Shown here: positions 12,449 through 16,230 of the stretch, one piece after another
Position numbering within the stretch: the stretch's first letter is position 1
Layout: the number at the start of each line of letters is the position of its first letter
Source of the DNA: Bacteroidales bacterium
Lineage (GTDB): Bacteria; Bacteroidota; Bacteroidia; Bacteroidales; F082
Assembly: GCA_016291135.1 (NCBI GenBank)
Contig: JAEFAE010000008.1
Coordinates: forward strand, 1-64,000
Direction: 5' to 3'
Length of the DNA stretch: 64,000 nucleotides
Notes under the pieces: generated by a model
Seen by the model: the letters and a program-made list of their open reading frames with translations, nothing else
The model's database searches: none
Told to the model about the DNA's origin: nothing
Program-made: the position numbers and the translations under genes

Positions 12449-13615
12449 TTATTCGCCCGCTGCCTTCACGGTCCTGACAATCACCTTCCGGTCGCCGACA
12501 AGGGTGGTGGCAAAGAGGTATACGGCGTCGCCCTCGGCCATGCCCAGGGCCTTGCGCAGCTGGGCCACCGTCAGCGGGAAGTTGCGGGTGGCGATGCTGG
12601 CCTTGTCGACATCGGCCAGCAAGGTCTTTCCGATCTTCTTGTTGTAGGGGGCCCAGCCTTCCACCCGAAAGGTCCGGCCGGGGAAGCCGGCCACCCACTG
12701 GTCGGAGGTGTAAAGATGGCTGTTCGGGTGGAGTTTCCTCACCCCGAAACGTTGGGTCGGGAGCTTGAAACAGCCGCCCTTGAGCAGGGCGGCGTTGGGC
12801 TCATAGAGGTAGTGGGACACCGTTTCGGCGAGCAGCGGCTGGCAGGAACGCTCCTCCTCCTCGGTGAAACGGACCGAAGGCTGGTCGCTATGGAGGTTCA
12901 CACAGGTGAATACCGGGGCACCCTCATGGTCGGGGTCGAGCAAAAACAGCACCTCCTTGCATTCGTTGCCGACGGCCACCAGATGCACCTCGCTGACATG
13001 GTGCAACTGTCCGAGCGCCTGATGGAGGTCGAGCATGGGCGAAAGCTTCAGCAGCACCCTTCGGGCCCGTTGCAGCAACCGGTCCTGCAACACCGTCACG
13101 TCGGGCGTGCAGTCGGCGATGGACACGGTCTTCCGTCCATGGGCGTCGCGCCGTGCCGGATCCAGAAAGATACAGTCGACCGGAGCCGCGTCCTGCAGGT
13201 AGTCTTCAGCGGTACGGTGGCACACCCGAATCCGGTCGCCCAGCACCCCGAAGTTGTGTTCGGCCAAGGTACAGAGCCCTGCATCGGCCTCCACATAGTC
13301 CGTGTGTTGAAACTGTTTTGAGAGGAAATGGCAGTCGACCCCCAAGCCTCCCGTCAGGTCGGCAAAGGTGTCGCCTTGCACTAAGGTGGCCTTGTATTGG
13401 GCAGTGGCCTCGGAGGAACATTGCTCCAGCGAGAGGTGCTGGGGAAACAGCAGCGCATCGTTCCCGCTCCAGGAAGGCACCTTGCGGCGCAGCAACTGCC
13501 GGGCCGCTATTTGACGCAATGCCAAGGCCATATCGACCTTGGCATTGCGGTATTTCAGGGCCAATTCATGAACATCGTCATCGAGATGTTCGGCGATGAA
13601 CTGCCTGGTATCCAT
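12449..13615 (-). CDS. Class I SAM methyltransferase with THUMP-like domain (PG_1098 family)
   Basis: A predicted RNA methyltransferase of 388 residues. The SAM-binding core shows TFADLTGGLGVDCHFLSKQF (motif I) and VDCIFLDPARRD (motif IV-like, with a DPAR where N6-adenine enzymes have DPPY), followed by a C-terminal region resembling the THUMP-like domain of Porphyromonas gingivalis PG_1098. The substrate is unknown, with tRNA or rRNA inferred from the domain. ATG 13615 shares one base with the stop of the pseudouridine synthase gene (TGATG), so the two RNA-modification genes are translationally coupled. The longer start at 13663 would overlap that gene by 49 bases and is less likely. Confidence 0.8.
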   Translation of the reverse strand: MDTRQFIAEHLDDDVHELALKYRNAKVDMALALRQIAARQLLRRKVPSWSGNDALLFPQHLSLEQCSSEATAQYKATLVQGDTFADLTGGLGVDCHFLSKQFQHTDYVEADAGLCTLAEHNFGVLGDRIRVCHRTAEDYLQDAAPVDCIFLDPARRDAHGRKTVSIADCTPDVTVLQDRLLQRARRVLLKLSPMLDLHQALGQLHHVSEVHLVAVGNECKEVLFLLDPDHEGAPVFTCVNLHSDQPSVRFTEEEERSCQPLLAETVSHYLYEPNAALLKGGCFKLPTQRFGVRKLHPNSHLYTSDQWVAGFPGRTFRVEGWAPYNKKIGKTLLADVDKASIATRNFPLTVAQLRKALGMAEGDAVYLFATTLVGDRKVIVRTVKAAGE

Positions 13616-14892
13616 CAGATTTTCTTCAGCATGGCCACTTCCTTGTCGGAGAGGAAACGCCATTCACCACGAGGAAGCTTGTATTTGTCGAGACCGGCGA
13701 ACATGACACGGTCGAGACGGGTCACCTCGTAGCCGAAGTGTTCGAAGATACGGCGGACGATGCGGTTGCGTCCCGAGTGCAGCTCGATGCCGATGCTCTT
13801 CTTGCTCTCGTCGTCTTCGTCGTAGGCGATGGTGTCGGCAGCGATGAAGCCGTCGTCGAGTTCCACGCCATCGGCGATGCGAAGCATGTCGTTCTTGGTG
13901 AGCGGCTTGTCGAGGATGACATGGTACAGCTTGCTGACCTGGCTGCTCGGATGGGTGAGCTTCTTGGCGAGGTCGCCGTCGTTGGTGAGCAACAGCAAGC
14001 CGGTGGTCATCTTGTCGAGACGGCCCACAGGGAAGATGCGTTCGTTGCAGGCGCCCTTGACGAGCTCCATCACGGTGTCGCGGCCTTCCGGATCGTCGGC
14101 GGTGGTGATGAAGCCTTTCGGCTTGTTCAGCAGGATATAACGGAGCTTCTCACGGTTGAGGGTCTGGCCACCATAGACCACCTTGTCTTCGGTCTTGACC
14201 TTGAAACCCATCGTGGTGACCACCTCGCCGTTGACGGTGACGCAGCCGGCCTTGATCAGCTCATCGGCCTCGCGGCGTGAGCAGACGCCACAGTCGGCCA
14301 AGTATTTGTTCAGACGGATCTCGCCCGTTGCGGCGGGACGGTCGTACATGGGATCCTTTTCCCTGACATAGCCCTTGCGGCCACGGCGAGGGGCTTCCTC
14401 CTCCATTTCCTCTTGGAAACGGCGGCCACGGGCCGGACGGTCCTCATCGTTGAAACGACGGCGGGGACGCTCTTCGTCGCCGAAGCGACGGCGCGGACGG
14501 TCTTCGTCGTTGAACTTGCGGCGGGGACGGTCTTCATCATTGAACTTGCGGCGCGGTTTCTCGTCGGATTCGAAGCGACGGCGCGGACGGTCTTCGTCAT
14601 TGAATTTACGACGGGGACGGTCTTCATCATTGAATTTACGACGGGGACGGTCTTCATCGTTGAACTTGCGGCGGGGACGCTCTTCGTCGTTGAAACGACG
14701 GCGCGGACGGTCCTCATCGCGGTGCGGGCGTTCACCTCTCGGCTTCTCGCCAAACTTTCTCTCTTTTCTCGGTCCTTCTTCGTCACCGTCACGGTGGGAA
14801 ATCCTGAAGGACTTGTTCTGCAGGAACTCTTCCTTGTGCACTGCAGGTTTTCTGGTACGCGGACGCTTACCAGTGTTTCCTTGTTCTGTCAT
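13615..14892 (-). CDS. RluB/RsuA-family rRNA pseudouridine synthase with Arg-rich repeat N-terminus
   Basis: Probably isomerises a uridine in the large or small rRNA. Residues of about 1-165 are highly charged low-complexity sequence, dominated by about ten copies of a ten-residue unit FNDEDRPRRK. From about 170 comes an S4 domain (IRLNKYLADCGVCSRREADE) and then the catalytic domain with the active Asp in GRLDKMTTGLLLLTNDGD. The C-terminal half is ordinary RluB. Basic, repetitive N-terminal extensions occur on this enzyme in Bacteroidota and may bind RNA (inference). A -7 element TAATTTTG lies at 14924-14931, 31 bases before the ATG. Confidence 0.9.
   Translation of the reverse strand: MTEQGNTGKRPRTRKPAVHKEEFLQNKSFRISHRDGDEEGPRKERKFGEKPRGERPHRDEDRPRRRFNDEERPRRKFNDEDRPRRKFNDEDRPRRKFNDEDRPRRRFESDEKPRRKFNDEDRPRRKFNDEDRPRRRFGDEERPRRRFNDEDRPARGRRFQEEMEEEAPRRGRKGYVREKDPMYDRPAATGEIRLNKYLADCGVCSRREADELIKAGCVTVNGEVVTTMGFKVKTEDKVVYGGQTLNREKLRYILLNKPKGFITTADDPEGRDTVMELVKGACNERIFPVGRLDKMTTGLLLLTNDGDLAKKLTHPSSQVSKLYHVILDKPLTKNDMLRIADGVELDDGFIAADTIAYDEDDESKKSIGIELHSGRNRIVRRIFEHFGYEVTRLDRVMFAGLDKYKLPRGEWRFLSDKEVAMLKKI
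14436..14725 (-). repeat. 30-base in-frame tandem repeats in the pseudouridine synthase gene
   Basis: About nine to ten imperfect copies of a 30-base unit encode FNDEDRPRRK or close variants (FESDEKPRRK, FGDEERPRRR). Because the period is a multiple of three, copy number can change without a frameshift. Several adjacent units, for example those around 14585-14665, are nearly identical, so slippage or recombination has probably acted recently. Confidence 0.85.
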
Positions 14893-14946: not shown

Positions 14947-14980
14947 TTGATGCGTGGTATTGGAAAAAATTGTATTTTTG
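14947..14980 (+). promoter_or_regulatory. Promoter of the candidate structured RNA
   Basis: TATTTTTG at 14973-14980 fits the -7 consensus TAnnTTTG, with a possible -33 TTG at 14947-14949 spaced by 23 bases, slightly longer than usual. Transcription would start near 14986-14990, just at the first predicted hairpin of the RNA. No plausible coding sequence follows on this strand until 16304. Confidence 0.5.
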
Positions 14981-14987
14981 CATTCAC

Positions 14988-15223
14988 ATAGTGTGTCCGT
15001 AACAACCACGGAACTATGGGTTTTTGCTATTGTTTCACGTCGAAAACAGCCTGGGAACTATTTTCGTAACGTTAATAGTAATGCAATCAGCATTGGTTGC
15101 CTAAAGTGTCGAATACTGGCAAAGTCCCCTCATCTGAACAAGGTGTGGGTACTTTGTCTACGACACTTCGGGGACATGACCCAGGCGCCCGTCGACGTGA
15201 GAGACAATCCCACACCTTTTTTT
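14988..15223 (+). ncRNA. Candidate structured non-coding RNA with U-tract terminator
   Basis: A 236-base non-coding stretch between convergent-facing housekeeping genes is packed with complementary segments. Helices seen: 14988-15016 (ATAGT/ACTAT enclosing TCCGT/ACGGA); 15056-15080 (ACTATT/AATAGT around CGT/ACG); 15083-15100 (GCAATC/GGTTGC); 15104-15168 (AAGTGTCG/CGACACTT enclosing CAAAGT/ACTTTG); and 15141-15217 (AGGTGTGGG/CCCACACCT), which ends in seven T. The last two compete for overlapping bases, so they form a pseudoknot or alternative folds. I do not recognise it as tmRNA, SRP RNA, RNase P RNA or a typical 6S RNA. Family is unknown; the non-coding call rests on structure plus flanking promoter and terminator. 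Confidence 0.5.
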
Positions 15224-15315
15224 CGGGACAAAGATACATGGTTTTTTTTGGAATTCCAAGAAATATTGTTAAATATTTTTCAACAATATTTATTTAATTA
15301 TTTAAACATTGAAAA
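15224..15315. other. AT-rich spacer with inverted repeat
   Basis: Between the RNA terminator and the stop of the BASS transporter gene is an AT-rich spacer. AATATTGTT near 15262-15270 pairs with AACAATATT near 15282-15290 around an AT loop. It might act as a weak terminator for the transporter gene read from the right; I see no coding signal. Confidence 0.35.
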
Positions 15316-16230
15316 TCAAGGCGTTTGCACTTCCTTCGCATGGTTGTCGCGGCGTTCCTTCTGCATCATCTGGAAACTGTTATAGAGGTTTTGCCACAAC
15401 ACGTACAAGGTGGGAACGATGCAACTCAGATCGAGCAGGAAGGTCTGCGACATCCAGATGGCCAGCACGGTGTTCTTTTGCCCGAGCGACTGCCCGCCCG
15501 CCACGTAGTCGCCATACCGCTTGCCGATACGGTGACCCACGAAAAACTGCAGGAAACAAAGGAAAATGGAAAGCGCCACCATCCAAAGGAACATGTTCCG
15601 GTGCTCATAGAACTGGTCGACCAGTTGCTCGATGGCCCTGGAGATGACCACCGTGAGCGACACCGCCCAGATATAGAAAGAAAGGTTCTTGTGCCGGTTG
15701 ATGGCTGCATTGGCCTTAGGCCACAGCCATCGGGTGAGCACCGCCAGCACAAAGGGGGCGATCAACAGCGGGAACACCTTACCCAAAATGGTCAGGAAGG
15801 AACTCCAAAACGAGATGTCGGGATCGGCACCGATCAGCGTGAAGGAAAGCGGAGCCACGACGGCCACCATCAGGTTGCAGGCAATCAGGTAGGTGCTCAT
15901 CATGCCGATGTTGGCCCCCAGGATCAACGAGACCGCAATGGCCGCCGAGGCGGTGGGAGCAAGCACCGTAACGAAGCCCCCCTGGGCGATCACCGGATCG
16001 AAGGGACGCAACAGAAAATACACCGCCGCCGAAACCACCAACTGGAAGAGAAGCAGCCAAAAATCGAACATCGTAAAACGCATCTTTTTGACATCCAACG
16101 AATTGAATGAAAAGAACAGCATCAAGAAGATGAAATACGGCAAAGCAGGCTGCAGTACCACGATGTATTCGTGGAAAAAGATGCCCAATAGGATGGCAAT
16201 GGGAAGGATCCAGCTTTTGTAACGTTGCAC
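15316..16230 (-). CDS. Bile acid:sodium symporter (BASS) family transporter
   Basis: A 304-residue integral membrane protein with nine or ten predicted helices and few polar loops. Segments such as VTVLAPTASAAIAVSLILGANIGMM and VAVVAPLSFTLIGADPD (near 100-140) and GQSLGQKNTVLAIWMSQTFL (near 255) match the two discontinuous, Pro/Asn-containing core helices of the BASS superfamily. Bacterial members transport organic anions with sodium; the substrate is unknown here and bile acids should not be assumed. It has its own promoter, diverging from the TatD-like gene. Confidence 0.75.
   Translation of the reverse strand: MQRYKSWILPIAILLGIFFHEYIVVLQPALPYFIFLMLFFSFNSLDVKKMRFTMFDFWLLLFQLVVSAAVYFLLRPFDPVIAQGGFVTVLAPTASAAIAVSLILGANIGMMSTYLIACNLMVAVVAPLSFTLIGADPDISFWSSFLTILGKVFPLLIAPFVLAVLTRWLWPKANAAINRHKNLSFYIWAVSLTVVISRAIEQLVDQFYEHRNMFLWMVALSIFLCFLQFFVGHRIGKRYGDYVAGGQSLGQKNTVLAIWMSQTFLLDLSCIVPTLYVLWQNLYNSFQMMQKERRDNHAKEVQTP

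Follow-up and report, generated by a model that had tools for sequence, protein, structure and literature searches.

A stand-alone relative of pseudoknotted Bacteroidales leader RNAs that may act in trans on the leader of an HTH-like gene

The stretch of Bacteroidales DNA analysed here (64,000 nucleotides, hereafter the window) carries in an intergenic region of its + strand an RNA of ~240 nt, at about 14986-15224, which we consider with high confidence to be a genuine structured RNA that is related to a family of 5' leaders but stands alone. This family is absent from Rfam 15 and apparently undescribed. We propose that the window RNA is a trans-acting paralogue of these leaders, and that a seed and an exposed loop within it would dismantle the leader of a small HTH-like gene elsewhere in the same genome (C42), thereby raising expression of that gene. 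For this explanation as a whole we estimate a probability of about 0.6; action in trans on the C42 leader, taken by itself, is likely.

The window RNA would be read from a promoter of its own, in divergent orientation to an rluB/rsuA-type pseudouridine synthase gene (13615-14892, - strand; Pfam PseudoU_synth_2 and S4). Towards its N-terminus the rluB-like protein carries a long repeat of low complexity (RRRFNDEDRP-like; 14400-14760, - strand) that varies between relatives. On the other side lies a gene at 15316-16230 (- strand) in the same orientation as the rluB-like gene; its product, for which searches of Pfam and NCBIfam gave no match, looks by impression like a bile-acid/sodium symporter. 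A standard scan of the RNA locus found no sigma-70 promoter and no short-loop terminator, and an ordinary terminator of that kind at the RNA's end was accordingly rejected. The -7 element makes this a Bacteroidota-type promoter, for which TAnnTTTG is the consensus (excerpt of PMC7366714); the motif sits just 5' of the seed in all seven RNAs found at rluB loci, and no clear -33 element was identified at the window promoter. Both the -7 element and the terminal T7 tract lie exactly where the original prediction had placed them (Table 1). As also predicted, no convincing same-strand gene follows, and the inverted repeat that typically stands ahead of the gene in family leaders is absent from the window copy. 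With neither this repeat nor the start codon of a controlled gene downstream, the RNA is to be regarded as a stand-alone relative and not as a leader. Overlapping ORFs are present in the segment, yet the changes follow the helices, which argues against a protein-coding reading.

The predicted fold is unusually stable. Its minimum free energy (MFE) is -93.7 kcal/mol compared with -61.0 +/- 4.6 for 200 dinucleotide shuffles (z -7.13), none of which reached the native value, and the RNA contains six exact 8-nt complementary arm pairs compared with a mean of 0.38, a number equalled by 2 of 500 local shuffles. The prediction had recognised no housekeeping RNA here. Rfam 15 likewise offers no identity: a scan of the whole window gave no family at its gathering score, and searching the stretch up to E 10 gave two matches (E 4.1 and 5.9), both far under their own gathering scores.

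Table 1. Elements of the window RNA and its promoter
Element	Position	Strand	Basis or remark
-7 promoter element TATTTTTG (TAnnTTTG)	14973-14980	+	sequence; 7/7 rluB-locus RNAs
Seed CATAGTGTGTCC	14987-14998	+	complements HTH-like-gene leader at G000:C42:9239-9250
5' hairpin enclosing the seed	14987-14992/15013-15018 and 14996-15000/15008-15012	+	MFE
P1 5' strand TCACGTCG	15035-15042; extension 15029-15034	+	alignment; P1 covaries in family
P1 3' strand CGACGTGA	15193-15200; extension 15203-15208	+	alignment
P3 hairpin GAAAA/TTTTC	15042-15046/15061-15065	+	P3 covaries in family
P2 5' strand GCCTGGG	15049-15055	+	alignment
P2 3' strand CCCAGGC	15180-15186	+	alignment
P5 5' strand AAGTGTCG	15104-15111	+	several compensatory changes among 3 homologues
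P5 3' strand CGACACTT	15161-15168	+	alignment
P6 5' strand GGCAAAGT	15118-15125, pairs with 15151-15158	+	alignment, MFE
P7-like 5' strand, rival for 15141-15149	15127-15135	+	MFE; P7 conserved in family leaders
Shared strand AGGTGTGGG, P7-like pairing or 3' pseudoknot/terminator-like helix	15141-15149	+	
3' strand CCCACACCT of pseudoknot/terminator-like helix	15209-15217	+	
T7 tract, presumed transcript end	15217-15223	+	

The helices on which the original prediction was built are present at the positions it gave, namely the P5 arms with the enclosed CAAAGT/ACTTTG (15120-15125/15151-15156) and the two strands of the terminator helix. Its claim that these helices compete holds in part. A pseudoknot is supported, but the helix spanning 15104-15168 and the 3' helix do not exclude one another, as they cross without sharing a base; competition for the same bases comes instead from the local pairing of 15127-15129/15131-15135 with 15141-15145/15147-15149, found in the MFE structure. 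The third alternative that had been put forward, GTCCCC/GGGGAC (15124-15129/15170-15175), is present in the window but is not kept in the homologues from genomes G008 and G004. The strands of P1, P2, P3, P5 and the 3' pseudoknot all occur in the window copy. P3, whose loop exposes GCCTGGG, is missing from the window MFE, where 15057-15062 pairs with 15074-15079 instead; MFE folding cannot represent pseudoknots. P7 appears in the MFE, interrupted and less perfect than in family leaders. P6 is intact in G004 and has two broken pairs in G008, and the flanks of the seed vary between aligned homologues.

Homologues at the same site were found by blastn against 60 relatives. There are two, in G004 (73% over ~190 bases) and G008 (72% over 110), both upstream of an rluB-like gene; the other matches were many short ones to the promoter region and a single 29-base match in G048. 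In the three-way alignment P1 and several P5 pairs carry compensatory changes, and the main helices are kept, as expected if the RNA is conserved in related genomes. A covariance model of the three RNAs (R1) gave matches at E <= 1 in 20 of 99 genomes of the genus, of which 13 look real; the seven weak ones (E 0.13-0.87) were left out as probably chance. One of the 13, G092, holds a fourth copy at the rluB site, and others hold more distant members. An rluB-type gene occurs in 57 of 60 genus genomes. Thirty of its loci were taken, and 26 were readable beside the gene (L046 and L054 are truncated; in L051 and L057 the start is misplaced): three have the long form, three a short RNA (G023, G060 and G020) and 20 neither. 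The short form shares with the long form its place, promoter type, seed and the motif AGCCTGG, and ends, by eye, in an ordinary-looking terminator hairpin. That only this form occurs in three relatives indicates that the seed, whatever its role, does not require the large fold.

The long form occupies the rluB site in only four of the genomes examined, a scarcity that speaks against a housekeeping RNA of the genus, similar to 6S. Such an RNA would be long and helical with its own promoter, as this one is, and RF00013, the Rfam model for 6S, detects none in the 60 relatives; that silence is weak, since a 6S RNA is reported in Bacteroides (excerpt of PMC7366714), and 6S RNAs of this order may escape the model. 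Against the window RF00013 gave no match at its gathering score or up to E 10. As the relatives of the RNA are leaders, and two further covariance models (R2 and R3, below) place it in the leader family, we consider a 6S-like identity highly improbable.

Away from the rluB site the real-looking R1 matches are mostly 5' leaders, and most family copies examined are leaders of ~210 nt. In the window's own genome (G000) the copy on C42 precedes the gene for the 105-aa HTH-like protein. This gene has 15 close orthologues in the 99 genomes, 13 of them with the leader RNA; in G034 and G079, where the HTH-like gene stands without it, the rluB locus has no RNA either. Upstream of the gene in these two (loci L089 and L091) the leader RNA has given way to a short GGC...GCC hairpin-like remnant. 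The model R2, built solely from the 13 HTH-like-gene leaders with the window excluded, finds the window RNA at full length (15019-15221; 63.1 bits, E 1.5e-13, 82 kb searched), and R3, built from 60 leaders, also finds it at full length (41.2 bits, E 1.6e-8, 172 kb searched). Homologues at the same locus, their compensatory changes and models made without the window RNA that recover it together support the prediction of a stand-alone structured RNA.

In strict-filter whole-genome searches with R2 and R3 (5-6 candidates scored per genome) the window copy was not listed; those listed from its genome were C42, by both models, and by R3 a third copy, C30, which precedes an EcoRI_methylase gene. Across the order, R2 gave matches in at least 17 of 393 genomes and 11 of 206 genera, a lower bound with six candidates scored per genome, and one of the 17, G270, looks like chance. 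Across the phylum R3 gave at least 2 of 395 genomes (5-6 candidates scored in each), one being the window's own; the match in the other, G517, lies inside a 421-aa ORF and was taken as chance. An exact 24-nt family pattern occurred in 68 stretches in a search of genome contigs, all of them titled as Bacteroidales, a Bacteroidales family or genus, Bacteroidia or Bacteroidetes. A phage or plasmid origin was rejected, the pattern having no match in viral contigs and one leader having none among plasmids and phages. Twenty leader loci compared with Rfam 15 gave no match except a tRNA beside one locus, and the matches listed in a literature search, whose coverage left out most subscription papers, included no description of such leaders.

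The genes behind these leaders are varied. Proteins encoded downstream could be scanned for 53 of the 68 stretches (14 have no ORF >= 80 aa, and L214 is out of frame); EcoRI_methylase (PF13651) accounts for 35 of the 53, and the others include N6 methylases, type IIG enzymes, a helicase, glycosyltransferases, a sulfatase-type protein and a YhcG-type nuclease. At L200, L211 and L194 only the 5' part of the leader RNA is present; right at the break begins a YhcG/DUF1016-type gene in L200 and a different gene in L211, as if genes had been swapped behind a fixed 5' end. At L252 (G053:C33) a short RNA-like piece with a AAGCGTCGGAAACT loop lies ~450 bases upstream of the full leader L161. The 105-aa protein itself had no match in Pfam (0.01), NCBIfam or PADLOC (0.001), or PDB (0.1); two weak HTH-type Pfam matches (E 0.16-0.19) fall below the cut-off, and its sequence reads as that of a putative HTH regulator. 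At L216, in another Bacteroidales genome, a leader lies ahead of an 85-aa protein 40% identical to it, and the association of leader and small HTH-like protein may extend beyond a single genus.

The leader structure is supported by covariation. In the 13 HTH-gene leaders 94.0% of cells are paired, compared with 36-52% when the structure is slid, and 11 pairs are doubly changed compared with 3.3 +/- 1.3 in shuffles (0/500); P7 differs in these leaders, which were left out of the P7 count. In the 60 leaders the structure with the 3' helix has 94.7% of cells paired (34-50% when slid; 95.1% for the version with P7) and 143 cells changed on both sides compared with 49 in shuffles. Both whole structures beat all 500 shuffles in paired cells, doubly changed cells and covariation score, as well as all slides. 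Doubly changed pairs were matched by 1/500 shuffles for the P7 version and 4/500 for the 3' helix version of the 60 leaders, and further pair types did not beat the shuffles (45/500 for the 13 leaders; 398/500 and 288/500 for the 60 leaders with P7 and the 3' helix, respectively); these controls leave the relatedness of the sequences in place. P1, P2, P3 and the 3' pseudoknot covary among family leaders.

A single strand, GGTGTGGGC, has two partners in the 60 leaders, either the upstream GCTCGCACC, forming P7 (96.4% of cells paired), or a 3' end of the AGGCCTGCACC type, forming the terminator-like helix (95.1%). The two helices are mutually exclusive and each is conserved, and their use of one strand suggests a switch. 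A T-rich tail (6-7 T of 8, the first T being part of the motif) follows the 3' strand in the 57 of 60 leaders in which that strand was recognised, the other three standing outside the count, and an inverted repeat GTGATTGATAG...CTATCAATCA lies within 12 nt before the ATG in 52 of 60. By eye (L166-L233), the loop of this repeat often has AATGC, the complement of the leader's 5' GCATT. With this anatomy the leaders are probably transcription attenuators in which a pseudoknot would serve as the terminator-like helix, the shared strand going into either P7 or the U-tailed 3' pairing. P5, by contrast with its hypervariable sequence, stays complementary in all 61 leaders in which it was sought, with 6-17 bp; stems of 6-7 bp among these could be chance. 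The near-identical leaders L202 and L225 differ in P5 on both strands, and L213 and other leaders likewise combine a hypervariable P5 with an almost unchanged remainder.

What ties the window RNA to one particular leader is its seed, which lies near the 5' end, as is common in sRNAs, and perfectly complements GGACACACTATG, which lies at the 3' end of the C42 leader's shared strand. In 2.62 Mb of the genome (83% complete), GGACACACTATG is matched perfectly only at that leader and at the seed itself, and with one mismatch at two further places. The GCCTGGG of the P3 loop also complements the P2 3' strand of the same leader; it counts against the proposal that the two trans sites follow each other in one and the same 5'-to-3' order in the two RNAs, which would give two separate duplexes. 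The seed pairs with the same leader site (10-12 of 12 pairs) in every one of the seven genomes whose rluB site carries an RNA, and seed and leader show matched changes in G004, G020 and G060. None of 300 shuffled seeds did as well in G000, G004, G020 or G092, the margin is modest in G008 (8/300) and G060 (6/300), and the G023 seed is no better than shuffled ones (135/300). Predicted binding to the prefolded leader hairpin is better than for shuffles in G000, G004 and G092 and not above them in G008, G020, G023 and G060.

Complementarity also tends to follow the host. Some seeds pair slightly better with another genome's leader than with their own. Partners were permuted over the seven genomes (5040 orders, the true pairing counted). 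Own-genome pairing gave 12/5040 for seed pairs, 68/5040 for seed stacking energy, 38/5040 for the GCCTGG loop with the leader P2 3' strand (the G008 cis value left out) and 2/5040 for seed pairs and loop jointly, figures behind which stand few independent changes. Against the proposal, G010, G061, G062 and G013 have the leader and no RNA at the rluB site, and in G010 and G120 the seed has no perfect match except the opposite strand of their own leader, so the RNA may be unneeded there or have changed.

The window RNA could instead be a decayed cis leader, the relic of an attenuator whose gene was lost, its seed complementarity being due to shared ancestry with the P5 strand. Indeed, 5' leaders make up most of the other family members examined, the downstream region offers no convincing gene to control, and G008, G004 and G092 have lost the T tract. 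A relic would hardly have its fold kept at one site in four genomes, with compensatory changes in the three compared, nor its promoter and seed persisting in three short forms without most of the leader fold, and descent alone would hardly explain a trans complementarity that tends to track the host genome (the joint 2/5040, true pairing counted); we consider such decay unlikely. The earlier suggestion that this may be a trans-acting RNA instead of a riboswitch is supported as regards probable trans action, but not as a clean either/or, the relatives being cis leaders.

If the RNA acts in trans, its seed would pair with the P5/pseudoknot region of the HTH-like-gene leader and its GCCTGGG loop probably with the P2 3' strand, dismantling the leader fold and most likely blocking the terminator-like helix, and expression of the HTH-like gene would rise. 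Activation is favoured because the seed covers part of the strand that the terminator-like helix needs; the sign is a guess from this geometry, and we rate activation by such blocking as just a little more probable than the reverse. In pT181-type attenuators the antisense RNA promotes the terminator and lowers expression (excerpt of PMC3753616), and the mutual exclusion of P7 and the terminator-like helix would allow the same here, with the seed opening P5 and P7, freeing the shared strand and promoting termination. As a full account this repressing version strikes us as improbable, given that the seed covers the shared strand's 3' end, and much of the strand in G004 and G092, which would hinder the terminator-like helix itself.

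The proposed activating system resembles the pT181 type in having a structured 5' leader with one strand either sequestered or in a terminator, and a small RNA that pairs with the leader, where one hairpin can change specificity (excerpt of PMC3753616). It differs in that the leader is pseudoknotted, the trans RNA comes from a separate locus and has the fold of the leader itself, and the system is chromosomal, in Bacteroidales, mainly before DNA-methylase genes, with termination read from the leader anatomy. Like Bacteroidales-1 and Bacteroid-trp (RF01693 and RF01692; excerpt of PMC2864571) these are structured Bacteroidota RNAs from comparative genomics, but the window RNA and the 20 leader loci have no Rfam 15 match. 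With small RNAs of Bacteroides the window RNA shares the TAnnTTTG promoter and an intergenic location (excerpt of PMC7366714), whereas it would be a paralogue of its presumed target leader.

One may speculate that RNA-keyed attenuators are widespread in Bacteroidales, private P5 helices acting as locks and leader-derived stand-alone RNAs as keys, mostly guarding DNA-methylase, defence and surface genes. We regard this extension as doubtful. The C30 leader contains no perfect 8-nt complement of the window RNA, and no trans partner for it was found in the window's genome; a search for partners of methylase leaders in six genomes likewise found none, with counts at control level. These negative results weigh against the main trans-acting proposal as well. 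The sole exact match outside a known leader in that search, L119, has no surrounding leader and looks coding.

If real, the family would constitute a new class of regulatory RNA, large, pseudoknotted and covarying, in many genomes of one order, and its leaders before DNA-methylase genes would give an entry to the timing of restriction-modification genes. Its hypervariable P5 helices would serve as natural orthogonal RNA parts and, should locks and keys exist, would form a natural set of orthogonal switches timing when the guarded genes turn on. With the stand-alone copy in the window one could readily test whether leaders of this kind respond to RNAs acting in trans.
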